IMG/VR virus record: IMGVR_UViG_3300035188_000277
Coordinates: 62,001 to 126,000 of that record
Direction: 5' to 3' (one strand)
Length of the DNA stretch: 64,000 bases
Source of the DNA: a virus
In this document: one piece after another, positions 10,190-63,039 of the stretch
How positions within the stretch are numbered: position 1 is the first letter of the stretch
How the letters are laid out: each line of letters starts with the position of its first letter
Notes under the pieces: model-generated
What the model was told of the DNA's origin: nothing
Seen by the model: only the letters and a program-made list of their open reading frames with translations
Database searches by the model: none
Position numbers and translations under genes: made by a program

Positions 10190-11155
10190 TTACTTGATTC
10201 TTTCGTTTAATTGTTTGATAGCCTCAATTAACAAAGGAACGATTCTTTCATATTTAACGGCTTTAGTTCCATCTGGTCTAGTAGCGACTGCTTCTGGCAG
10301 AACCGCTTCGATCTGATGAGCAAGAACACCAACGTCGTGTTTACGAACGAAATAACCATCTTCGCCGCCGTGCTCTTTAATATATTCGTCTGTCCAATCG
10401 AACTCCACACCATCCAAAGATAGAACTTTTTCTAGTGCGTTTGAAAGGTTTGACACGTTTTCTTTAAGAGAAGCATCTGAAGAATAATAAGCAGTGATGT
10501 TATTATAGGCACGAATTTCGCCAGTTGTTCCAGAGGCTGGTGTTCCAACGCCAAGAGACTGAATCTGAGAAACACCAGTTGTTACTGAGGTGTTCATAGT
10601 CGTAACGCCAGAAATAGTGACGTTGTTACTCATATTAACGAGTCTAAGATTTGTAGTAGAACTTGTTACGTTAAGAGTTCCGCCAATAACAGCGCTTCCA
10701 GTAACATTAATATCAGAACTGAAACTACCGTTACCGCTAAAACTCATCTGATTGGAGAAAGTAACAGCTCCAGTAACTGTTAATGTATTAGCGAAAGTTG
10801 CAGCCCCGTTTACGTTCAAAGGTCCACTAAACGAACCATTACCACTGAAACTCATCTGATTGGAGAAAGTGGCTTGACCAGTAACTGTTATTGAATTAGC
10901 AAACGTAGTAGCGCCAACAACATTTAAATTACCAGTAACATTTGCAGTAGAAACTGTTGCCACATTTAAAGTAGCGTTTCCTGTAGCTTGGAAATTACCA
11001 ACAACATTGGCCCATCCGAAAACTTCAGAATTACCATTAACTGTCAGGACTTGACCTGGAGTCAATGTGCCAATACCAACCTTCCCGTTTCTAACAGAAA
11101 GAAGGCTGGTATTTACAATAAGACCATTTTTTACTACGAAATCGTTATTAGCCAT
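10190..11155 (-). CDS. Neck-adjacent fibre with S74 self-cleaving chaperone domain
   Basis: A 321-residue fibre. Residues 1-220 are repetitive beta-structured sequence with two near-copies of ATFSNQMSFSGNGSF. The last 100 residues form a Peptidase_S74 intramolecular chaperone: the SDASLK motif supplies the Ser-Lys dyad (Ser and Lys five apart), followed by DVGVLAHQIEAVLPEAV and KYERIVPLLIEAIKQLNERI. Such domains trimerise the fibre and then cut themselves off N-terminal to the Ser. In T4 this gene position, just before 13, is held by fibritin (wac), so this may be a functional substitute for whiskers; that is inference from position only. Confidence 0.85.
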   Translation of the reverse strand: MANNDFVVKNGLIVNTSLLSVRNGKVGIGTLTPGQVLTVNGNSEVFGWANVVGNFQATGNATLNVATVSTANVTGNLNVVGATTFANSITVTGQATFSNQMSFSGNGSFSGPLNVNGAATFANTLTVTGAVTFSNQMSFSGNGSFSSDINVTGSAVIGGTLNVTSSTTNLRLVNMSNNVTISGVTTMNTSVTTGVSQIQSLGVGTPASGTTGEIRAYNNITAYYSSDASLKENVSNLSNALEKVLSLDGVEFDWTDEYIKEHGGEDGYFVRKHDVGVLAHQIEAVLPEAVATRPDGTKAVKYERIVPLLIEAIKQLNERIK

Positions 11156-11185: not shown

Positions 11186-11193
11186 TATTTATT
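11186..11193 (-). promoter_or_regulatory. Late-type promoter before the S74 fibre gene
   Basis: AATAAATA on the minus strand about 31 bases before the fibre ATG, overlapping the stop of the oxygenase-like gene. It has seven of eight bases of the T4 late core. Confidence 0.55.
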
Positions 11194-11779
11194 TAAACTT
11201 TGGACCCTCCACCCAAACAGCGATAAATTTTCTGACCCCTTTGGTAACAGGTTTTATTCTGTAATTCATCCAAGAAGGAAACGCAATAACTTTACCTTTG
11301 TCTAAATTAATCTTTACTGGTCTTTCTACAGAGCCCATAATTAACTCAATTTCTCCGCCCTCAAAATCTATATCTTGCTGATTCAAAGCCATGATCAAAG
11401 TAAGTTTTCTGGTTTCTTTTTTTAGAGATTCAGCGTTTGGAAAATCTTCTAAAACAATATCCATATGCCAATCGCAGCTACCTTTGTTTTCTTGATCGTA
11501 AACCCCGTATTGAAACGTTTTATAACCATTCAATTCAAAGCCATAAAACTCATTATTGATACATGATATTACATTATTTAAACGATTAAAGATCCAAAAA
11601 GTGTCTTCTTCTTTATGGAAGAAATTTATTTTATTGAAATAATTATTTGACCTTTTATTATCGCAAATACCAACTATAGAATCTATTTCTTCTTCGTTAA
11701 AAGAATTTTCCCACCAAACATAAGGATAAGTTACATGACTTCTTTCATAAGGTTCGTTAGATATACAATTATATCTCAT
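11189..11779 (-). CDS. 2OG-Fe(II) oxygenase-like paralogue lacking the distal His
   Basis: A 196-residue paralogue of the gene just upstream. It keeps the HxD iron pair (H105, D107 in CDWHMD) and the 2-oxoglutarate-binding Arg (R183 in KGVRKF). The distal His is missing: the region that reads FPSFLLHKVKP in the neighbour reads FPSWMNYRIKP here, placing Tyr173 at the ligand position. I checked this on the DNA (codon TAC). It is therefore probably inactive as a classical dioxygenase, or uses altered chemistry, and may act as a binding or scaffold partner of the intact enzyme. Both genes look more AT-rich than the fibre genes around them, which hints at acquisition. Confidence 0.8.
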   Translation of the reverse strand: MRYNCISNEPYERSHVTYPYVWWENSFNEEEIDSIVGICDNKRSNNYFNKINFFHKEEDTFWIFNRLNNVISCINNEFYGFELNGYKTFQYGVYDQENKGSCDWHMDIVLEDFPNAESLKKETRKLTLIMALNQQDIDFEGGEIELIMGSVERPVKINLDKGKVIAFPSWMNYRIKPVTKGVRKFIAVWVEGPKFK

Positions 11780-11794
11780 AATAAAATCCTCTAA

Positions 11795-12421
11795 TTATTT
11801 AAATTTTGGTCCCTCTACCCAAATCACTAAAGATTTTCTGACCCCTCTAATTACTGGCTTGACTTTATGCAAAAGAAACGAAGGAAAAGCGACGATTCTT
11901 CCTTTAGACAAAGGTAATACTTCTGCATTATCTTCACGGGAATAATTCAACAAAAAATCTCCGCCCACGAAATCTTTGCTTGGGTCAGACAATAACATCA
12001 CTAAACTCATTTTTCTAGTGTCTTCAGTTTTATTGTCATTTCTACCTAGAAAGGTGTCCATGTGCCAATCATACATTCCTTGATCTTCTGCAGAATAAAC
12101 AGTGTATTGAATTTGATTATAACCGTTTAAATCAAAACCATAAAACTCGTCGTTTATTCCTTTTATAGCGTTATTAAATCTATCGAATATCCAACCAGTT
12201 TCTTGATTTCTTTGAATGAAATGTATCTTTGATCTTCTTATATCTGGTGTTTCTCTTAACTCTTCAGACCCAAAAGTTTTTGATTCTGTAAAATTAAAAT
12301 TTTTTTCTAAAGAAATGATATTTTCCAATTCTTCATCGGAAAAAGGAATATTCCATAAAACGTATGGATATGTAGATTTTCTTCTATCAATCGGGTTATT
12401 ATAAATCATATTATATTGCAT
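11795..12421 (-). CDS. 2OG-Fe(II) oxygenase, prolyl-hydroxylase-like
   Basis: A 208-residue member of the 2-oxoglutarate/Fe(II) dioxygenase superfamily with the prolyl 4-hydroxylase / PKHD arrangement. Iron ligands are H120 and D122 (YDWHMD) and H185 (FLLHKV); R195 in RGVRKS should bind 2-oxoglutarate. All are present. These enzymes hydroxylate proteins or small molecules. It follows the glycine-rich collagen-like protein at 12789-14141, which has Gly-Pro-Thr and Gly-Ser-Pro triplets, with one small gene between. A role in hydroxylating that fibre is plausible but unproven. The downstream gene is a degenerate paralogue. Confidence 0.87.
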   Translation of the reverse strand: MQYNMIYNNPIDRRKSTYPYVLWNIPFSDEELENIISLEKNFNFTESKTFGSEELRETPDIRRSKIHFIQRNQETGWIFDRFNNAIKGINDEFYGFDLNGYNQIQYTVYSAEDQGMYDWHMDTFLGRNDNKTEDTRKMSLVMLLSDPSKDFVGGDFLLNYSREDNAEVLPLSKGRIVAFPSFLLHKVKPVIRGVRKSLVIWVEGPKFK

Positions 12422-12436
12422 GATAAAACTTTCTTT

Positions 12437-12787
12437 TTATACCATTGCTTCGAAACTATTATCTTTGTTTAATAAAGGTTTTGCTGAAATGAGGTCTGTT
12501 TTAACTTGTGGGTCTAAAACTTCTTCTCTGAGTTTTAACCAATTAACTGGTGCATTTTTCTTTATGAAAAAATCTACTTCCTCTTCTGTAGGAATATTAT
12601 TTTCATAAAAGGTTAAATTATAGTCGGTGACGCATCTAGTTGGCCAACCATGTCTAGATAAACGTATTTTGCCGTTTGATTCGTATTCTGAGGCTAACAT
12701 TTCTTCAGTTATTTTATCTGTCCAATATCTAACAACTATAGAATGTTGAGCCTCATCTATATTAAGAACCCTATAATTAATTTTCAT
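12437..12787 (-). CDS. Conserved small protein beside the glycine-rich adhesin
   Basis: A 116-residue protein with an N-terminal beta segment (MKINYRVLNIDEAQHSIVVRYWTDK) and a helical C-terminus. I do not recognise a catalytic motif. It lies one base after the glycine-rich fibre gene, in the place where tail-fibre assembly chaperones often sit, and before the two oxygenase genes. A fibre-assembly role is possible on position alone. It looks like a real gene: good composition, tight spacing and no better alternative frame. Confidence 0.7.
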   Translation of the reverse strand: MKINYRVLNIDEAQHSIVVRYWTDKITEEMLASEYESNGKIRLSRHGWPTRCVTDYNLTFYENNIPTEEEVDFFIKKNAPVNWLKLREEVLDPQVKTDLISAKPLLNKDNSFEAMV

Positions 12788-12788
12788 A

Positions 12789-14141
12789 TCACACCTTCGG
12801 ACCGTTAATTGTTCCTGAATTTACGTAAATGATATTTGAGTTTCCGCTGATTGCAGAACCTTGAGATCCTGAAGCTCCAGTTGGTCCTGTCGCACCAGGA
12901 GATCCTGATGGCCCTGTCGCACCAGCAGATCCTGTTGGCCCTGTTGCACCCGCTGCACCTGTTGGCCCTGTTGCACCTGTTGGACCAGCTGCTCCGCCAG
13001 CACCACCTCCAGCACCACCTCCACCAACATAGAATGAGTGAGCATCATACCAAGTAGAATCTGAATAAGTTCCGTGACCACCAGCATTACCAGCACCGCC
13101 GATGCTGCCACCGTGACCACCACCGCCACCATGCGAGTGATAACCATGATCGTTGACGTGGGAGTGTGCTCCACCACCACCGCCACCACCTGAGTGACCG
13201 CTACCAGAAGAACCATGTCCACCACCACGACCTGATGAACCGCCACCACCGACAGGGCTTCCACCACCACCGCCGCCACCGCCTCCGCCAGCGTTGAAGA
13301 TGTGACGACCACCGCCGCCTCCACCACCACCGCCACCGCCTCCGGTGCCGCCTGGACCTCCTGGACCACCTGCTCCTCCTGGACCTCCTGGACCACCAGC
13401 ACCACCTGATCCACCAGGACCACCTGGACCACCTGCGCCTCCAGATCCACCTGAACCACCTGAACCGCCAGTAATAGTGTTAGTGTTATTCAAAAGAATT
13501 TTAATACCTGAAACTGTATCAGCTTGTAAAGAAACACCACCAGTGCCACCAGAATTACCTGGACCACCAGCATTACCTGTACCACCTGGTCCGCCAGCGT
13601 TACCAGTGCCTCCAGTGCCACCAGCATTACCTGTACCACCTGTTCCACCAGCAGCACCAGCACCACCACCGCCACCAGCATTACCTGCGTTAACATCGGT
13701 ATTGTGTCTATGACCTTCCCAATCTCCGTCCCAATGGTGACCTGTTGGACCATTCCAACCACCCCAGCCTCCGCCACCACCAGCACCGACTGAACCTGTA
13801 GAACCAGTACCTCCAGCGTTTCCTGGTGTTCCTGTGGCTCCTGCATTTCCCGCTGTTCCAGTAGTTCCAGTAGTTCCTGAAGATCCTGTTGTTCCTGAAG
13901 ATCCAGTAGCGCCAGTTATAACAGCATTGTTTTTGATGTAAAGCCAAGAACCACTTTTCCAAGAAGTTCCTGTTTTAAATGCTGGATTAGCAGAACTAGA
14001 ACTAGCAACGTTTGCATCAACGAAACAATAAACTGCTACGGGGAAAGCAGGATTTGACGCCTTTGAATACAAATCAACGTTGTTTTCAGCGGCGCTAATC
14101 TTAACAACTTTAGTTGGTCTTGGTAAAGGTACAACAAACAT
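12789..14141 (-). CDS. Glycine-rich, collagen-like candidate tail-tip adhesin
   Basis: A 450-residue protein. Residues 1-78 are an ordered head ending in WKSGSWLYIKNNAVITGATG. About residues 80-430 are extremely Gly-rich, with Gly-X-Y triplets (GATGPTGAAGATGPTG near the C-terminus, GGPGGPGGAGGPGG in the centre), runs of up to twelve Gly, and patches of His and Trp (NGPTGHHWDGDW; AHSHVNDHGYHSH). The plan of a short domain followed by many poly-Gly segments resembles gp38-type adhesins of T-even phages, which fold as polyglycine type II bundles with variable receptor-binding loops. I therefore favour a receptor-binding tip protein. A collagen-like trimer is the alternative for the C-terminal triplets. 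The start overlaps the upstream fibre stop. Confidence 0.8.
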   Translation of the reverse strand: MFVVPLPRPTKVVKISAAENNVDLYSKASNPAFPVAVYCFVDANVASSSSANPAFKTGTSWKSGSWLYIKNNAVITGATGSSGTTGSSGTTGTTGTAGNAGATGTPGNAGGTGSTGSVGAGGGGGWGGWNGPTGHHWDGDWEGHRHNTDVNAGNAGGGGGAGAAGGTGGTGNAGGTGGTGNAGGPGGTGNAGGPGNSGGTGGVSLQADTVSGIKILLNNTNTITGGSGGSGGSGGAGGPGGPGGSGGAGGPGGPGGAGGPGGPGGTGGGGGGGGGGGGRHIFNAGGGGGGGGGGSPVGGGGSSGRGGGHGSSGSGHSGGGGGGGAHSHVNDHGYHSHGGGGGHGGSIGGAGNAGGHGTYSDSTWYDAHSFYVGGGGAGGGAGGAAGPTGATGPTGAAGATGPTGSAGATGPSGSPGATGPTGASGSQGSAISGNSNIIYVNSGTINGPKV

Positions 14142-16387
14142 TATTTTACATCCGTTAGATATGAGCCATAAAGATTAGTTCCATCAGAGATAAACGAGAA
14201 TACGTCTCTTGCACCAACTGCTGTTGATAGAACTGGAGCGACACCAGCTGGCCATTTGAACACTGAGTTCCAAGTAATTCCATAACTTCCAGAACCGCCT
14301 TGGATTACATGTAGTATATAGGTTCCCACTTTAAGGTTCGATGGAGCGCCCATGGTTCTTGAAGCTCCAATAGTGACTGTTGCTACCTGTCCAGAAGCAG
14401 TGTTCCAAGAAATAGTGGCTCCATCTGTTAGAGTCTGATTGAGAACGTTTGCCTGTGCAACGCTAACAGTTCCAGTAAAGGTTGGAGAAGCCAATGGAGC
14501 ATAAGTGGAAGAAGCAGAAGATGTAGTCAGATAAGAAGCTGCTGCAACTCCACCAAGATATGAAGCGTTATTAGCAGTTAAACCACCAATACTTGAGGTT
14601 GTTACGTATGAAGCAGCCGCTGTTCCACCCAGATAAGAAGAATTGTTCGAAGTTAATGCACTATTAACATTCAAGTTTCCTTCAGTCTTACCATAAGCAG
14701 TAGTAGCATTATTAACATTTAGATTGCCTTCTGTCTTGCCATATGCAGTAGTAGCATTATTAACGTTTAGATTACCCTCTGTCTTACCATAAGCGTATGT
14801 TGAGTTATTAGCAGTAGCAACGCTCAGAGAAGCCTCTGTCTTACCGTAAGGACCAGTGGCATTACCGATAAGAGTTGAGTTGACATACACACCAGAAGTG
14901 TTAGCTCTGAACCATACAGAACTTGTATTACCAGCAATAAAGTTATTGGCTTGGAAATTAGCTAAATGAAAAGAAGTATTAGTGGTGTCAATATAGGTAT
15001 TAGCGTCTGGTTCTGGAAGATAACTATCGAAAACTTTCCAGATACCGTCAGAAGCATCTCTAAAGAATCCAGTATGTTGGTAAGTTCCATCGTTATAATT
15101 ACCAGCAAAACCAATATCTGGGTTCGCAATAGTGTTATTTGCGTTCAAATAAATCATGGCGTCGACATATGACACTACGTTCGAGCCGATAATATTAACA
15201 TTCGAACCAACATAAAGATTACCAGAAACAGTAATATTACCGACTGTAATACTATCAGTAGACCTTACGTTCTGGTCCATACGATATGGAAGTCTAGCTT
15301 CAGCAAGAGTTCCACTAGAAATATTAGTAGCATTGGCTGCAAAGGTAGTAGCGTTAGTATATGCTGTTGCAGCATTACCTGTGATCGCAGCATTTGCTGT
15401 TAGAATCTTGCCATCTACATAGGAAACAGCGTTAGTGTATGCAGCAGCTGCAGCTGTTTGAGCAGAAGCAGCACGAGTGTTAGCATCGATAGCTCTATCG
15501 TATGCATTCTTAACAGTATTAGCGACTGGAATTAAGCTAATTGAAGTGTTGGTAACGGAGTCAAGTTTTAGGCCATCTACATAAGAAACAGCGTTAGTAT
15601 AAGCAGTAGCAGCGTTGCCAGTAATCGCTGCATTAGCAGTTCCAATCTTTGTATCGGTGTACGATACAGCATTGGTATAAGCAGTAGCGGCGTTACCAGT
15701 TATAGCAGCATTGGCAGTTCCAATACTAGTGTCAGTATACGTTACAGCGTTAGAATATGCAGATGCAGCGTTTGTAGTAATCCAAGAAGATACATTAGCC
15801 ACAGTAGCTGAAGAATTACCAAGATAGGTTGCTACGTTGGCAGTACCAGTAAAAGTAGCGCCGACAATAGTGTTACCAACCGTTAATGTTCCTGTGCTTG
15901 GAACAAAGGATAATCCAGAAGTTGCGACTACAGCGTTGGTCCAAGACCCAGAAGTTCCGCTAGAAAGTCCAATATAATAAGTTGTTCCATCAGTGTTATT
16001 AGCGTTAAGAGTAGCACCAGCAGTCGCCCAATAAACACTAGAACCATTTGAAAGAAGAGATTGCCCAGAAGATCCAAATCCACCATTAGCGGAAAGCCCA
16101 GCTGAAGTTCCGATAATAATATTAGCGTCATGAGTATGAACGCCTGTTATAGTATAAGAACCAGCAGTGTTCACATAAGAAGCTGCTGCAACGCCGCCTA
16201 AATTATTGGCGTTGTTAGCAGTTCCTGGGTAGTTAGTATTGTTAACACTTCCACCGCTGATCGAAATACCAGTAGAGTTAATGCTGACGTTGCCGACAGC
16301 TATTTGACTTGTTATGGTTACGGTATTAGCGGCAGTGTTTACTGAAACTACCTGTCCAAAAGTACCTAACTGTTGATTCTGAGCCAT
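14141..16387 (-). CDS. Long tail fibre / appendage protein with tandem repeats
   Basis: A 748-residue Asn/Ser/Thr/Ala-rich fibre. It contains several near-identical units: NAAITGNAATAYTNAVSY copies around residues 230-350, and a 16-residue YGKTEGNLNVNNATTA unit repeated around residues 515-575. A module GQSLLSNGSSVYW near residue 115 is shared with other fibres here. The C-terminal 110 residues (from about VAQANVLNQTLTDG to the end GSYLTDVK) are closely similar to the C-terminus of the fibre at 29605-31395, pointing to a shared trimerisation or attachment domain. A TATAAATA late promoter lies upstream. Confidence 0.85.
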   Translation of the reverse strand: MAQNQQLGTFGQVVSVNTAANTVTITSQIAVGNVSINSTGISISGGSVNNTNYPGTANNANNLGGVAAASYVNTAGSYTITGVHTHDANIIIGTSAGLSANGGFGSSGQSLLSNGSSVYWATAGATLNANNTDGTTYYIGLSSGTSGSWTNAVVATSGLSFVPSTGTLTVGNTIVGATFTGTANVATYLGNSSATVANVSSWITTNAASAYSNAVTYTDTSIGTANAAITGNAATAYTNAVSYTDTKIGTANAAITGNAATAYTNAVSYVDGLKLDSVTNTSISLIPVANTVKNAYDRAIDANTRAASAQTAAAAAYTNAVSYVDGKILTANAAITGNAATAYTNATTFAANATNISSGTLAEARLPYRMDQNVRSTDSITVGNITVSGNLYVGSNVNIIGSNVVSYVDAMIYLNANNTIANPDIGFAGNYNDGTYQHTGFFRDASDGIWKVFDSYLPEPDANTYIDTTNTSFHLANFQANNFIAGNTSSVWFRANTSGVYVNSTLIGNATGPYGKTEASLSVATANNSTYAYGKTEGNLNVNNATTAYGKTEGNLNVNNATTAYGKTEGNLNVNSALTSNNSSYLGGTAAASYVTTSSIGGLTANNASYLGGVAAASYLTTSSASSTYAPLASPTFTGTVSVAQANVLNQTLTDGATISWNTASGQVATVTIGASRTMGAPSNLKVGTYILHVIQGGSGSYGITWNSVFKWPAGVAPVLSTAVGARDVFSFISDGTNLYGSYLTDVK
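14655..14850 (-). repeat. 48-bp tandem repeats in fibre gene
   Basis: About four consecutive copies of a 48-base unit encoding YGKTEGNLNVNNATTA-type segments; the middle two encode identical residues. Such repeats can change copy number by recombination and alter fibre length. Confidence 0.75.
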
Positions 16388-36768: not shown

Positions 36769-37617
36769 TTATCCTTGCTCGAATTTTATCTGTGGAGACT
36801 TGATAGTAATTGAACCACTTTCGATAGTAATTGTAGAACTACCAACTTTGAGTTCGATTTTAGTATCGCTCTCTATTTTTGTATCGCTTTTAGATTTGGT
36901 GCTTATTTTCGCCCCAGAATTAGCAGTCATGTCCTGATCGGACTGGAACAGCATGGTGTCCTGAGAAAACGCCTTGAATGCTTGTTTAGACTCTAATTTG
37001 ATTTTCTGCTTGGCAAAAGCGTCCCAGTTTTCATTGAAATAATATGCGGTGTCTTTGTTGTTCATTTGGACATATTTGCCCTCATGACCATCTACTGTAT
37101 CGCCTTCGACCTTAGTATATTTGTTCTTTTTGAAGGTTTGTCTATGATCGCCATTAACGCCAACATCGTTTGTACCTGAAGATCCACCAGCAATAATTTT
37201 TGCAGAGCCGTCTTTCACAAGCTCGATTTTCTTACCACCGATACCGAACATGCCGTTCATTTTGGCTACAAAAGAACCATCACCACCAGACTCTAATCTA
37301 AAAGTTGACTCTGTATTAAAATCGTAATGACCGTCGACGTGAACAGAATGACCTGCTCCAGCATATGAGTGTTTATTTCCTGGAGTTATTTCAAAATGAC
37401 CTTCTTTGACATCATCATCTGCTTCAGTTACTTGATAACCACCAGAAGGGTTTAATTTCTGACGAAAAGTTTTCTTTCCTTCTTCAGCGTTTACATATAC
37501 CCAATCATGACCACCACATTCGTCCCAATTACCATGAACGAAACCGTATTTTGGTTTGGTTTTCTGGTTACAGACTTTAGACTTTGGTGCTTTTTTGTTA
37601 TAATCCTTATGCGCCAT
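36769..37617 (-). CDS. 5: Central spike beta-helix protein (gp5 C-terminal part)
   Basis: A protein of 282 residues if read from MAHKDYNKK at 37617, which overlaps the upstream stop and is preceded by a GAAGAG site; a start five codons upstream (37632) is possible. The C-terminal half is a regular alternation (DTKIESDTKIELKVGSSTIT, then ESGSITIKSP) typical of the gp5 triple beta-helix needle. The N-terminal half has conserved Cys/Trp segments but no OB fold and no lysozyme motif. It is thus only the needle part of T4 gp5; the OB part is a separate gene at 39223-39519. It bears the PAAR tip encoded next. Confidence 0.82.
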   Translation of the reverse strand: MAHKDYNKKAPKSKVCNQKTKPKYGFVHGNWDECGGHDWVYVNAEEGKKTFRQKLNPSGGYQVTEADDDVKEGHFEITPGNKHSYAGAGHSVHVDGHYDFNTESTFRLESGGDGSFVAKMNGMFGIGGKKIELVKDGSAKIIAGGSSGTNDVGVNGDHRQTFKKNKYTKVEGDTVDGHEGKYVQMNNKDTAYYFNENWDAFAKQKIKLESKQAFKAFSQDTMLFQSDQDMTANSGAKISTKSKSDTKIESDTKIELKVGSSTITIESGSITIKSPQIKFEQG

Positions 37618-39223
37618 TTGTAGTCTCTTCAATTCCTAGTAGTGTTAGTAATGTTTGCATATCTGATATTTCAGTGTTAGAAAGACCGCTGTTGGTTTGT
37701 TCCGACCATGCACCAGATCCACCAATAGTTGCGTCGGGGAAGCCAGAACCTGCTCCTCCTCCACCACCACCAGAGCCTCCTCCAAGGCCACCAAAACCAC
37801 CCATTAGACTGCCCATCATTCCACCAATATCACCTCCGCCCAAAATTCCTCCGAGTGTTCCAAAACCACCCATACCGCCGATTTGAGCAAGACTACCCAA
37901 TCCGCCAAGTGCGCCACCGAGCCCACCACCGCCGAGTGCTTGCATTCCGACTTGTAGAATTTGATTGTTCATTCCCATTTGTTTCTGGAAATCTTCCATA
38001 ACACTGGCTGTGCTTCCCGCAACCGTTCCGTTTTTTGATCCGATTTGTTCTTGTTGGAACATCTGAATAAGCTGCATCAACAGACCGATTAACATACCCA
38101 TCATAGCAGCCATGTTGTTTCCGCCGCCTCCGCCACCAGCATTATTACCAATAATTAAGTTTCCTTGTTGAACTTCAATCTGTTTAATCCATTTATCAAG
38201 AACATCGTTCAAATAACGTGGGAATAATGGATCTGCTCCCTGACTAATAGTATATTGGGTTGGATCAACATAGAAATATTTGTCAAGATCAGCAGCAATA
38301 CCACGTTCAACATTTGAGTAAATTTCCTCTTGTGCAGAAGCAAACGTATAAGTTCCCAATTCTCTTCTAACGTAATAAATTGTAGCTGTTAGGTCGTTGG
38401 GATCGATCCATTGATCGTAGCCTGGATATGGTTCGTTAGCAGGAGAACCATAATATTGTTTCTGGTAAAAGTCTGGAACTTCTTCTAGTGTAACTAGATT
38501 AGTTGGAACGATATCTCCATAATACGTTTCGTCATAAGAAGAAACTGGAATATTCAATGGTCCATAATAAATTGCTACTTTTAACAGAGCAGAAATCGCT
38601 TTAATGACGATTGGTTGATACCAGCTGTCTAATTGTTGTAATCCGCCATTAGGTAGAGTAATAAGAACGAACATTTTAATTACTCGTTCGAATCCAAATT
38701 TCTTGATAAGAATAGCGAGCGCCCCAACGAAACCATCAGTAAGAACGATACTCATTCCTGATGGTGTTCCTGTGACTGTGAAACCGCTATTACCACCACC
38801 AGAACCACCACCAAGACCAGCGCCCATACTCATAATGCCCATAATCATAGACATGTTTTGGTATAATTGAGGTATTTGCTGTGCTTGACCTTGAGGGTCT
38901 ACTTCTTTAACAGCTTTTGGTAGATCTTTAGTTCCCTTTTTAGCAGCAGCCGTTGTTGGTTTGTCACCACTCGGTGCAACTTTCTTTCTTACATCTTCGA
39001 GCTTTTTGGCTTTGTTTTTTTCAACTCCTGGAGACTCTGGATATTTTGGATCTTCGGTTTTTGGTTTTTCCTGACCAAGAAATTGATTAAAGAAAATAGT
39101 TAAATCTTTGTCAAAGAAATTTTCTTCGTCTGTGCTAGAAAAACCAGGAGTATCTGGACCTGCATTTTTAGGTTCGATCTTACCACCAGTCTTTTGGTCT
39201 TTTTGTTTAATCTTATTTGCCAT
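37607..39223 (-). CDS. Gly/Met-rich hub-region structural protein, unrecognised
   Basis: A 538-residue protein lying between the OB and the needle parts of gp5. Residues 1-115 are charged and low in complexity. A central ordered domain (about 155-355) contains LLKVAIYYGPLNIPVSSYDE and PGYDQWIDPNDLTATIYYVR. Two hydrophobic Gly/Met segments (near 125-145 and 370-395, MAAMMGMLIGLLMQLIQMFQ) and a long poly-Gly C-terminal stretch follow. No family recognised. Position suggests a hub or needle-associated protein, possibly one that enters or contacts the membrane. The end overlaps the needle gene by about 11-26 bases depending on its start. Confidence 0.72.
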   Translation of the reverse strand: MANKIKQKDQKTGGKIEPKNAGPDTPGFSSTDEENFFDKDLTIFFNQFLGQEKPKTEDPKYPESPGVEKNKAKKLEDVRKKVAPSGDKPTTAAAKKGTKDLPKAVKEVDPQGQAQQIPQLYQNMSMIMGIMSMGAGLGGGSGGGNSGFTVTGTPSGMSIVLTDGFVGALAILIKKFGFERVIKMFVLITLPNGGLQQLDSWYQPIVIKAISALLKVAIYYGPLNIPVSSYDETYYGDIVPTNLVTLEEVPDFYQKQYYGSPANEPYPGYDQWIDPNDLTATIYYVRRELGTYTFASAQEEIYSNVERGIAADLDKYFYVDPTQYTISQGADPLFPRYLNDVLDKWIKQIEVQQGNLIIGNNAGGGGGGNNMAAMMGMLIGLLMQLIQMFQQEQIGSKNGTVAGSTASVMEDFQKQMGMNNQILQVGMQALGGGGLGGALGGLGSLAQIGGMGGFGTLGGILGGGDIGGMMGSLMGGFGGLGGGSGGGGGGAGSGFPDATIGGSGAWSEQTNSGLSNTEISDMQTLLTLLGIEETTNGA

Positions 39224-51119: not shown

Positions 51120-51196
51120 TGGCGGTCCCGGAAGGATTCGAACCCTCGACCTTGGGAGTAGAAATCCCCTGCTCTATCCAGCTGAGCTACGGAACC
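51120..51196 (-). tRNA. tRNA-Arg (anticodon TCT)
   Basis: A full cloverleaf: acceptor GGTTCCG/CGGGACC, D stem GCTC/GAGC, T arm GAGGG-TTCGAAT-CCTTC, discriminator G and encoded CCA. The anticodon loop TTTCTAC gives TCT, reading AGA (and AGG). The first anticodon-stem pair (G27-A43) is mismatched. AGA codons are common in the neighbouring genes. It lies 34 bases downstream of the tmRNA. Confidence 0.93.
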
Positions 51197-51230
51197 ATTA
51201 TTAGTATTATAACCTAGCAGAATTGAAAAG

Positions 51231-51262
51231 GCAAGTTGTTTCTGTTTCTAGGGACAACTTGC
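51231..51262 (-). terminator. Hairpin at the 3' end of the tmRNA
   Basis: GCAAGTTGT and ACAACTTGC form a 9-bp stem with a 14-base loop, followed on the minus strand by CTTTTC. It is either a weak terminator or a 3' structural helix of the coding piece. Confidence 0.5.
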
Positions 51263-51443
51263 GAACCCCAATGGATCATGCAGCTAGTGCATAAGCTCCA
51301 AATGATGCATCATTATCGTTTGCATCTACGTTTCGCCTTTGGTCTCCTTACGACCTTACTGAATCCTGTCGAACCTGAATCGCCCCCATCAAAGATACAC
51401 CGATTATCATATCCCATCGGCTAGCACGATATAAGACCACACA

Positions 51444-51535
51444 AACGACCTCGGTGGCTGATGTATCTATGGTGGAGGCGGTGGGAACTGCCCCCACGTC
51501 CAAGAAACCTATGTTTCGTCTCTCAACGACCTCGG
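51444..51535 (-). repeat. Direct repeat flanking the tmRNA acceptor piece
   Basis: CCGAGGTCGTT occurs twice in the same orientation, at 51525-51535 near the predicted transcript start and at 51444-51454 within the intervening segment, so the copies bracket the acceptor piece. Confidence 0.7.
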
Positions 51536-51541
51536 CAAACT

Positions 51542-53107
51542 TTATTTATAAATGTTATCTCTAAGGTATTCGTAGTGATTGGGAAGAGTTTTAATGTATT
51601 GTTTCAACGCTGCTTGATGATTAAGCCAACTATATTTGATATCATGTAACTCATTAGCTAATTTTGGGTTTCGTTTCATATCGATATTATGATCCATCTT
51701 AGTAACAAAACTGTAATTACCTGCCGCCAGAACTCTATGATAACTAAAGTTGCCTTCTTTCATTTTCAATTTTTCTGGATCAGTTGATTGGTTTTGATCA
51801 TAAAGATCTCTAAACAATTTACTAAAATAATCCCCTTCATGGTTATGATTCATAGCATTGGTTCTATGCTTCCAATAAGGAGAATCTTCTCTTTGAGAGA
51901 GAAAATATTGCGCTGTTACCCAATCTTTGGCTTCTGAGGCTTCTTTAATTACGTAATGGTTATAATATTCTCTATCAAAGTTTTTTACATGACAATCCGT
52001 ATTAAGGAGGATACGAGCAATATTCTCAATCATAGATTGAGTCAAAAATAACCCTGTAGATCTCAGAGGTCCAATGAACGCACAAGAAAGCCCAACTGCA
52101 ATAACATTTTTATACCAAGGAGCCTTTCTAACTCCTGGAGTGAATTTCATAGAACGAAATTCTAAACCGTCCGCCCTTGAACCATATCTTTTTCTTATAC
52201 TTTCACGTAGTTCCTCTTTAGCCGATTCTTCGTTGGTATGATTACTGCTATAAACATAGCCAGAACCAATTCTATCCCAAATTGGAATATTCCACTCCCA
52301 TCCACTATCTAACGCTACACAATCTGTGAAACTAACCATTTCTTCTTTTTTACATTCGTAAGGAATATTGGTCGCAATCGCTCTATCGTTTACAAGAACT
52401 TCTGAAAAATCTATTAATCCTATTTTCAACCCTTGTTCTAATAGAATAGATCTAAACCCAGAACAGTCAATATAAAGATCTGCAGTTAGTGGTCCATTCT
52501 CATTAGTCTCTAAACATGTGATACCATTGTCATCAGTCCGAATAGCATAAATGTCATCGATGATATGTTTAACACCGTTCGGAATAGCGACAAGGTCTTT
52601 TAACATCAATCCAAATTTATAAGCGTCGAAATGATACGCTTTTTCTATATTAGGATTCCATTTCATTGGTCCTGGTTTGTCAGTATATTTGTTTTGAAGA
52701 ACCATATGATAGTTGTCATCAAAAAATTCAGGAAAATCAAAAGGCTGGAATAAATCTGGATATTGATGACAAAGGTTATAGAATAATTTAATATCTCTCA
52801 TAGGGACTGGAGGCGTAATCCCCTTAGTCAAATCATAAAAACTTTTACCCTTCTGATAAAAGTCTGTTAGCCTAATGGTTGTTTTATAAACAGCGTCACA
52901 CTTTGGCATCCAAATTTGTTCTGGGATACCAAATGGTTTCATAAACCTATTGATGTTTACTAAACTTGATTCTCCAACGCCAATAATTGGAACGTTTGTG
53001 GACTCTATCAGAGTAATGTTAACATTAGGTACATTTTTAGACAAAAGGGCAGCAGTCATCCAACCAGATGATCCGCCGCCCACAATCATAATACTTTTAA
53101 CTTTCAT
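51542..53107 (-). CDS. FAD-dependent tryptophan halogenase-like protein, Glu replaced
   Basis: A 521-residue member of the tryptophan halogenase family. It has the FAD motif GGGSSG (10-15), GVGESS (43-48), the active-site Lys (K75 in YKTTIR), an IDCSGFRS FAD segment and the halogenase signature WEWNIP (270-275). At the usual EPLES position it reads GPLRST: the catalytic-pocket Glu (E346 in PrnA) is Arg349 here, confirmed on the DNA (AGA). The halide-binding Ser-Thr-Gly remains. Such enzymes use reduced FAD, O2 and halide to form HOCl, held as a Lys adduct. Its substrate is unknown and may differ from Trp. Overlaps the small ORF before it and ends at the tmRNA promoter. Confidence 0.88.
   Translation of the reverse strand: MKVKSIMIVGGGSSGWMTAALLSKNVPNVNITLIESTNVPIIGVGESSLVNINRFMKPFGIPEQIWMPKCDAVYKTTIRLTDFYQKGKSFYDLTKGITPPVPMRDIKLFYNLCHQYPDLFQPFDFPEFFDDNYHMVLQNKYTDKPGPMKWNPNIEKAYHFDAYKFGLMLKDLVAIPNGVKHIIDDIYAIRTDDNGITCLETNENGPLTADLYIDCSGFRSILLEQGLKIGLIDFSEVLVNDRAIATNIPYECKKEEMVSFTDCVALDSGWEWNIPIWDRIGSGYVYSSNHTNEESAKEELRESIRKRYGSRADGLEFRSMKFTPGVRKAPWYKNVIAVGLSCAFIGPLRSTGLFLTQSMIENIARILLNTDCHVKNFDREYYNHYVIKEASEAKDWVTAQYFLSQREDSPYWKHRTNAMNHNHEGDYFSKLFRDLYDQNQSTDPEKLKMKEGNFSYHRVLAAGNYSFVTKMDHNIDMKRNPKLANELHDIKYSWLNHQAALKQYIKTLPNHYEYLRDNIYK
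51543..51550 (-). promoter_or_regulatory. Late-type promoter for the tmRNA
   Basis: An exact TATAAATA on the minus strand overlapping the halogenase stop. A T4-like start would fall near 51537, immediately before the tmRNA acceptor piece. Confidence 0.65.
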
Positions 53108-61839: not shown

Positions 61840-63039
61840 TTAATTTCCTTTATAATCTATAGAACTTTTACGGCTACGTCTAGTTTCTTCAACGCCATTA
61901 GTGTCGGAATCGTATTCTTCATTAACTGATTTTAAAATTGAAACTTTATAATACTGTTCGTTTGGTTTGGATACAGGAACGTTCTCGCCACAAGTTCGGG
62001 CGCAAACTTTCAATTTTTCTTCTCCCCAATATTCTTTATGCCAATCAATAGATTGCCACTCATAGCCATCCAAAACATCTTTTAAGGATTTAACCCTCAA
62101 GTCATTTCCAAAATTTTTCTCAATTCTTTCAATAAACTTTAACTTTTGATTATCTATTTCTCTAATCATATTAATAAATCTAGAGTCACGATCATCGTTA
62201 TTTGGTAATTTCTTTACTGGAAATTTAGCGCCAACTCCAATATAACAACATGGGAACATTTTCTGCCAAGCATCAATATATACTTCTTTGTTCTGGAGAA
62301 CAGGACAATTAATAACAGATCTATCGATGTAGTCATTATATCTATCACTGAACTCAAAATCAAGATATTTCATGTCTTGATCGGAGGAAGAAGGTTCTAG
62401 ATAATGCGTAACATTTCCTTGTTTATCTACTACTTTCATTTTCTTGGTGTTAAAAAACCTTAGAGTTTTTCTGGCGACAAATCTAGCAAATCCTAATTCT
62501 TTGGCTATTTTCTCACATTCTTGTTCTTGATGTTCGTTATGTTTAAACGATAGAAACACCCATACAGCGTTTCCGCCAGCTTCTATGAAAGATTTAGCAT
62601 TACGTATAATTGTTTCGTATTTTGTTCCGATACGATGTAGATGGTGAGTGTCCTCTAGTCCATCAATTGCGAAATAAACGTCGCTAACCTTTGGCATAAC
62701 TTTGGCTAATTGAGCCCACCACTCTGGTTTACGGGCACCACCATTTGTATGGATTCTTATATTAATCTTTGGATTGACAAATGAAGTATATTCGATCATA
62801 TCAATTAGATCGTCGTTTAACATAGGGTCTCCATAATTTCCAGAGAACCTAAGAAATTCCATCTGTTTTAAAACGTCTTCATTGAGAATTCTTCTATAAT
62901 CTTCAAATTTCCAAGAAATAATAGGCAAGCCAGGATTTACAATTTCACCATTAATATTTCTGGCGCACATTGGACATGCAGCCTGACAATTACTAGTAAT
63001 CTCTAAATGCGCTGCTCGAAGTTGATCAAATCTAAACAT
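61840..63039 (-). CDS. Radical SAM enzyme with SPASM-like C-terminal cysteines
   Basis: A 399-residue radical SAM protein. HLEITSNCQAACPMCARNIN holds the cluster cysteines C18, C22 and C25; FSGNYGDPML and IHTNGG are the following TIM-barrel motifs. The C-terminal part has further Cys (VINCPVLQ, FPCCYIG, then VCARTCGEN), as in SPASM/Twitch domains binding auxiliary Fe-S clusters. Such enzymes often modify peptides. It is coupled to the halogenase downstream. Substrate unknown; a short Lys/Arg/Ser-rich tail is extra. Confidence 0.9.
   Translation of the reverse strand: MFRFDQLRAAHLEITSNCQAACPMCARNINGEIVNPGLPIISWKFEDYRRILNEDVLKQMEFLRFSGNYGDPMLNDDLIDMIEYTSFVNPKINIRIHTNGGARKPEWWAQLAKVMPKVSDVYFAIDGLEDTHHLHRIGTKYETIIRNAKSFIEAGGNAVWVFLSFKHNEHQEQECEKIAKELGFARFVARKTLRFFNTKKMKVVDKQGNVTHYLEPSSSDQDMKYLDFEFSDRYNDYIDRSVINCPVLQNKEVYIDAWQKMFPCCYIGVGAKFPVKKLPNNDDRDSRFINMIREIDNQKLKFIERIEKNFGNDLRVKSLKDVLDGYEWQSIDWHKEYWGEEKLKVCARTCGENVPVSKPNEQYYKVSILKSVNEEYDSDTNGVEETRRSRKSSIDYKGN

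Follow-up and report, generated by a model that had tools for sequence, protein, structure and literature searches.

A phage 2-oxoglutarate oxygenase as putative prolyl hydroxylase of a predicted polyglycine adhesin at the tail-fibre tip

Introduction

2-Oxoglutarate (2OG) oxygenases and 'prolyl 4-hydroxylases' are frequent among the auxiliary genes of aquatic phages; the 2OG oxygenases of other phages are often assumed to be nucleic-acid, small-molecule or host-directed enzymes. According to a survey of Baltic viruses that also refers to collagen in viral tail fibres (PMC9301287), viral use of prolyl 4-hydroxylase 'remains cryptic', and a structure-based annotation study describes such oxygenases as widespread in marine phages and gives no substrate (PMC12774648). 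What, then, does such an enzyme act on? This question is raised by a locus in a 64,000-nucleotide stretch (the window; positions 62,001 to 126,000) of the 146,587-base virus record IMGVR_UViG_3300035188_000277, in which two oxygenase genes lie close to a gene for a glycine-rich protein. A first-pass annotation of this DNA had taken the latter for a collagen-like adhesin and the oxygenases for its hydroxylases. The analysis reported here makes it fairly probable that the intact oxygenase, P4Ha, hydroxylates proline residues of a gp38-like polyglycine adhesin before or during its folding, a putative substrate pairing that involves the following features (lengths in amino acids, aa).

14141..16387, minus strand: tail-fibre protein, 748 aa, directly upstream of the adhesin (open reading frame, ORF; PHROG 9017 tail fiber at residues 655-743)
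12789..14141, minus strand: glycine-rich tip adhesin of 450 aa resembling gp38, putative substrate of P4Ha (four Gly-X-Y runs in phase; 168 Gly and 24 Pro in the whole protein; model; Foldseek)
12437..12787, minus strand: 116-aa protein between adhesin and oxygenase (gene order; AlphaFold2 model)
11795..12421, minus strand: P4Ha, Fe(II)/2OG-dependent oxygenase with an intact active site, putative prolyl hydroxylase of the adhesin (PF13640, E=1.5e-13)
12062-12064, minus strand: P4Ha iron ligand H120 (67/67 homologues)
12056-12058, minus strand: P4Ha iron ligand D122 (67/67 homologues)
11867-11869, minus strand: P4Ha iron ligand H185 (66/67 homologues)
11837-11839, minus strand: P4Ha 2OG anchor R195 (67/67 homologues)
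11189..11779, minus strand: P4Hb, degenerate paralogue (PF13640, E=4.4e-10; Tyr for the distal iron-ligand His at 11261-11263)

The oxygenases and their operon

The late genes of the locus are on the minus strand, and the block runs from the fibre gene through those for the glycine-rich protein, the 116-aa protein and P4Ha to P4Hb; neighbouring genes overlap slightly or are 1 to 33 bases apart, the spacing expected of a tight operon. The hydroxylase had been placed just after the Gly-X-Y protein, which has to be corrected in that the 116-aa gene intervenes. Contigs L001 and L002 carry identical copies of all five genes, which makes an assembly error an unlikely source of the repeats or of the lost distal histidine in P4Hb.

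Both oxygenases match the 2OG-FeII_Oxy_3 family and PHROG 61, and their active-site residues were scored in a non-redundant alignment of 67 oxygenase homologues. P4Ha has the full HxD...H iron triad together with a downstream basic 2OG anchor and is intact, as had been proposed. P4Hb fails the triad and is the sole homologue (1/67) lacking H185; because its distal iron ligand is replaced by tyrosine, the suggestion that the paralogue is a second working enzyme is rejected. P4Hb, which is not present in the close relative L004, probably represents either a duplicate in decay or a scaffold-like partner with no catalytic function.

The designation 'P4H' is used as a working name only, since the solved structures nearest to the P4Ha profile are PKHD-type hydroxylases (PiuC and Sbal_3634, E about 1e-13), with the prolyl 4-hydroxylases 5c5t, 3itq and 2jig next (E 1e-8 to 1e-6). 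The PKHD-type YbiX/PiuC enzymes are also the top match in NCBIfam, although P4Ha falls far under the cut-off of that model (49 versus 143 bits). Proline is proposed as the substrate mainly because of the association described below, and not because of a family match. Among phage isolates, the top matches of the oxygenase are mainly from cyanophages, at 30-38% identity; in bacterial genomes, the one pattern scan made confirmed no such oxygenase.

The glycine-rich protein as a gp38-like adhesin

The proposed substrate is organized as follows.

13908..14141, minus strand: N-terminal domain, residues 1-78, family-conserved (alignment of relatives; PHROG 10745)
13734..13913, minus strand: Gly-X-Y run 1, residues 77-136 (20 phased triplets)
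13533..13685, minus strand: Gly-X-Y run 2, residues 153-203, with GGP motifs (17 phased triplets)
13305..13469, minus strand: Gly-X-Y run 3, about residues 225-279, GGPGGPGG-rich (18 phased triplets)
12852..13004, minus strand: Gly-X-Y run 4, residues 380-430, GPTGATGPTG-type (17 phased triplets)

At the glycine content of this protein (0.37), 17 phased glycines would arise with a chance of about 5e-8 per start by our own arithmetic, and the phasing of the four runs (17-20 triplets each) is therefore not random; both the ORFs and the repeats reported in the first-pass annotation are borne out. The protein has no Pfam match, and its PHROG matches comprise only a family of unknown function and general tail families, including a weak match to PHROG 30509 ('collagen like minor tail'). 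Its N-terminal domain, which matches PHROG 10745 (function unknown) in 15/15 family members tested and nothing in the PDB by sequence, may attach the protein to the fibre.

A single-chain AlphaFold2 model built from 22 relatives has a mean predicted local distance difference test score (pLDDT) of 74, with low-confidence loops; its high-confidence parts are the N-terminal domain, the strands at residues 66-71, 214-224 and 437-446, and portions of the glycine-rich stretches, which the modelled beta-strands flank. The top PDB matches of this model in Foldseek are the gp38 proteins of phages PP01 (9v85; prob 1.00, E=1.7e-4) and S16 (6f45; prob 0.89), and the next match, to the snow flea antifreeze protein (a polyglycine-II protein), falls short of significance. 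As is the case for T-even gp38, the adhesin gene is directly downstream of a tail-fibre gene with a co-conserved C-terminus: the last ~112 aa of the 748-aa fibre protein are conserved ahead of the adhesin in most relatives and are likely to constitute its docking end.

In S16, gp38 caps the fibre and its polyglycine-II helices are extruded from a beta-helix (PMC6851490; gp37-gp38, PDB 6F45). Given the gp38 matches and a gene position after the fibre gene as in S16, the glycine-rich protein, which has its richness in glycine in common with gp38, is read as a gp38-like tip adhesin; membership of the gp38 family is not claimed, in view of a large global root-mean-square deviation (rmsd) and the lack of any match at the level of sequence families. 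Further differences are that the N-terminal domain of S16 gp38 is a helical bundle whereas the present one contains strands, that the present Gly-X-Y runs are longer and proline-rich, and that the next gene in S16 encodes a holin rather than an oxygenase. On the strength of the gp38 model match, a collagen triple helix is set aside as the preferred structure, and the protein is probably a polyglycine-II adhesin on a beta-helix and not a collagen trimer; 'collagen-like' is accordingly apt for the repeats and not for the predicted structure. Collagen-like phage proteins, such as those of Escherichia coli O157 prophages (PMC3368898), likewise have Gly-X-Y repeats in a tail-associated setting; the present protein differs in that its model points to a beta-helix with polyglycine-II and not to a triple helix.

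The adhesin family also includes a 1145-aa member in which 76 Gly-X-Y triplets follow one another in phase (L005:762-4199, plus strand), and three loci (L182, L183 and L186) each carry a tandem pair of adhesin genes with the oxygenase alongside on the opposite strand.

The 116-aa protein, whose gene lies directly or closely downstream of the glycine-rich adhesin in nearly all relatives fetched, is modelled with a pLDDT of 95; its model has no fold match in the PDB, the only matches being proteins of uncultured phages. Because it is nearly always found beside the adhesin, it is a probable adhesin or fibre assembly factor.

Recurrence of the cassette among phages

Scans with P4Ha and with its alignment revealed oxygenase relatives in many uncultivated phages, in three layouts. 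In the first, the oxygenase gene adjoins those of the adhesin and the 116-aa protein, all three in one orientation; in the second, the oxygenase is nearby, mostly on the opposite strand; in the third, found in unrelated phages, both the glycine-rich protein and the small protein are of a different kind, and the oxygenase is often joined by a further one of the PF13759 family (for example L019:5754-6389 and L056:4321-5004, both plus strand). Among the 54 non-redundant oxygenases obtained via P4H queries, 13 are of the cassette type, 10 are in the same region and 10 are beside another glycine-rich protein, so that 33/54 share a region with a glycine-rich adhesin, across several clades and all three layouts. 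Examination of synteny, which the first-pass annotation had suggested, therefore shows the adhesin, small protein and oxygenase to recur together in diverse uncultivated phages. In the phage isolate collection, neither the adhesin N-terminus nor the 116-aa protein was found. The second small-protein family, when used for a scan, provided no control, as every contig retrieved had been recognized before as bearing the oxygenase.

Of the remaining oxygenases, 14 are located between recombination genes 46 and 47, and 7, of which some lie at the end of a contig, have no partner in view. The former arrangement, a close P4Ha homologue inserted between genes 47 and 46, is seen in T4-like contigs such as L010, L017, L045, L048, L072, L093 and L103. 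The case that had been named as refuting the pairing, an oxygenase in relatives without a Gly-X-Y protein, hence exists: no glycine-rich partner of the gene-46/47 subgroup was found in the two contigs examined, and adhesin pairing is rejected as a general rule for the family, which must also have another role; the claim made here is limited to the cassette-type enzymes and, as such, is not overturned.

It could be argued that the oxygenase is directed at nucleic acids, small molecules or the host and came to lie beside the adhesin by late-operon hitchhiking in a gene-swap hot spot. The gene-46/47 subgroup is in keeping with this view, as are the homologues of phage P-SSM7, which adjoin denV, and a weak match of P4Ha to PF09859 ('Oxygenase-NA'), which is below cut-off. 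However, the oxygenase repeatedly adjoins glycine-rich adhesins of two unrelated types at differing genome positions, and hitchhiking would not explain the proline association presented below, which together render this explanation rather unlikely.

Further genes were observed near these oxygenases. A tryptophan-halogenase-like gene (PF04820, E=4.5e-93; L070:6209-7684, plus strand) lies between oxygenases downstream of a glycine-rich adhesin-like gene, with ORFs comparable in size and position in L078 and L091, and a TctC-like solute-receptor gene (PF03401; L056:3347-4324, plus strand) is upstream of two oxygenases in a T4-like phage.

Adhesin proline content and presence of the oxygenase

To probe the substrate, 80 loci were fetched via the 116-aa protein, without regard to proline or P4H, and the upstream glycine-rich ORF was taken as the adhesin. 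Near-duplicate and truncated loci were dropped and whole contigs were checked, leaving 40 non-redundant loci. Those left out as truncated by contig ends (L133, L354, L374, L376 and L381) all lack P4H and are low in proline (0.024-0.059), and keeping them as P4H-less would not weaken the result. The proline share of non-glycine residues in the adhesin has a median of 0.112 in loci with the oxygenase (n=32) versus 0.036 in those without (n=8; Mann-Whitney p=5e-5), and phylogenetic generalized least squares (PGLS) regression of proline on oxygenase presence, using the tree of the 116-aa protein, gave a slope of 0.081 (p=0.0014; about 0.026 after correction for 19 tests, by our own arithmetic). 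Proline occupies 233/672 GGnGG motifs with the enzyme versus 8/97 without. In loci of the L113, L116, L135 and L187 type, the slot after the 116-aa gene has no oxygenase, whereas L114, L011, L016, L111 and L007 have one there; the former contigs, of up to 81 kb, contain no oxygenase homologue elsewhere, and their adhesins have few prolines in the repeats, as illustrated by L116, which has GGDGGDGG at the place of GGPGGPGG in L114. Adhesins without P4H fall into two distinct regions of the tree; in the reverse case L364 and L366, which possess P4H and are proline-rich, neighbour the P4H-less L331. The pairing of oxygenase and glycine-rich protein noted in this single genome is thus conserved well beyond it, though not universally, and proline tracks the oxygenase after correction for relatedness, in keeping with hydroxylation of the fibre-tip protein. 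That the tip is proline-rich with the enzyme and nearly always proline-poor without it suggests a chemical modification by the phage of the very tip with which it binds its host.

The oxygenase might instead act on the adhesin through another residue or chemistry, such as hydroxylation of Asn, Thr or Lys or a radical modification, with proline content merely following structure. The 2OG superfamily is generally known to modify many residues, Ala, Ser, Asn and Thr predominate at the X and Y positions, and PF13759 oxygenases and, once, the PF04820 halogenase-like gene accompany glycine-rich adhesins in other phages. When the other residues were tested, none was as strong a correlate: after phylogenetic correction there is no clear association with P4H for Asn (p=0.47), Thr (p=0.30) or Lys (p=0.19), and Val is weakly negative (p=0.018, uncorrected). 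As only proline clearly tracks P4H, and as prolyl hydroxylases are among the profile matches, modification of another residue is considered unlikely.

A third cause, be it host, habitat or lineage, could also underlie both proline content and P4H presence without any functional link between them, a notion consistent with the few independent transitions and with the wholly metagenomic origin of the contigs. In a smaller, adhesin-anchored set, proline of the flanking proteins was also lower in P4H-less loci; in the 40-locus set it shows no association with P4H (p=0.75), and the P4H effect persists when flanking proline and GC content are included as covariates in the PGLS regression (p=0.0013), so that neither accounts for the effect in this larger set. 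A second, unrelated adhesin type (Gly_rich) provides a replicate, with a proline share of 0.073 with the enzyme (n=5) versus 0.048 without (n=35; p=0.0013); this is weaker evidence for proline alone, since it is not tree-corrected and the accompanying decrease in Asp is more significant (p=0.0007). Taken together, these results make a common third cause quite improbable.

Several observations nevertheless weigh against prolyl hydroxylation of the adhesin by P4Ha. The enzyme is closer in sequence to PKHD hydroxylases than to prolyl 4-hydroxylases; there are two evident exceptions, L201/L379, which bears the enzyme and yet is low in proline (0.031-0.037), and L378, which has a proline share of 0.097 without it on a 37-kb contig; and T-even gp38 has an intermediate proline share (0.053-0.092), no GGPGG and a cassette devoid of such a gene. 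Independent gains and losses are few (at least two clades), and the contigs are mostly incomplete, so that absence of the oxygenase is not certain. To these are added the difference in flanking proline in the smaller set, the mean pLDDT and large global rmsd of the adhesin model, and two contigs with a gene-46/47-type oxygenase, of 168 kb and 77 kb, in which no glycine-rich ORF was found.

Proposed mechanism and relation to known systems

If proline is indeed the substrate of P4Ha, the following sequence of events can be envisaged. The gene at 12789-14141 would encode the host-recognition tip of the tail fibre, whose Gly-X-Y stretches would form polyglycine-II helices carried by a small beta-helix. 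In the infected cell, P4Ha would hydroxylate prolines within GGPGG, GPT and GXP of the newly made adhesin, before or along with folding and perhaps while the adhesin is held by the 116-aa protein, after which the modified adhesin would fold on the fibre end. Hydroxyproline may stiffen, hydrate or decorate the tip, given that hydroxyls on polyproline or polyglycine-II helices could stabilize the helices, hydrate their surface or contact the receptor. A wider proposition, that phage-dedicated prolyl hydroxylases (accompanied in some lineages by another 2OG oxygenase or by a halogenase-like gene) tailor polyglycine-II tip adhesins and so place hydroxyproline made in the bacterium on the receptor-binding surface, appears to us evenly balanced.

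The prolyl 4-hydroxylase of Chlorella virus PBCV-1 (Eriksson et al. 1999, cited in PMC9301287) resembles the present case as a virus-encoded 2OG oxygenase of the prolyl 4-hydroxylase type and differs in belonging to a eukaryotic virus, whereas the present bacteriophage enzyme is linked by gene order and proline content to one putative structural substrate. The 2OG-Fe(II) oxygenases of marine phages in PHROG 61 (PMC12774648) are of the same broad family as P4Ha, but the isolate records are without the present adhesin N-terminus or 116-aa protein. Neither prolyl 4-hydroxylases of viruses nor phage proteins with Gly-X-Y repeats are new in themselves; no paper pairing a phage oxygenase with a polyglycine adhesin was found in the literature covered, most subscription literature being outside that coverage.

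The locus offers one subgroup of these oxygenases a specific and testable substrate, a fibre-tip adhesin expected to set host range. If the pairing is real, recognition of the host by a phage can hinge on an enzyme that modifies its adhesin, a fibre expressed without the enzyme could be inactive, and hydroxyproline could mark such virions in environmental proteomics.

Other features of the genome

The virus is an uncultivated T4-like phage. By sequence comparison, its terminase is nearest to those of the T4-like Sinorhizobium phages phiN3 and phiM12 (56%), followed by other T4-like phages. After P4Hb come a fibre protein bearing an S74 chaperone (10190-11155) and then genes of the neck and terminase region. 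Elsewhere in the window, a permuted phage transfer-messenger RNA with the tag ANDNDASFGAYALAA adjoins a tRNA-Arg (51185-51562, minus strand; ARAGORN), and a 538-aa ORF (37607-39223, minus strand) contains a second glycine-rich stretch, which is hydrophobic and of the GGLGSLAQIGGMGG type.

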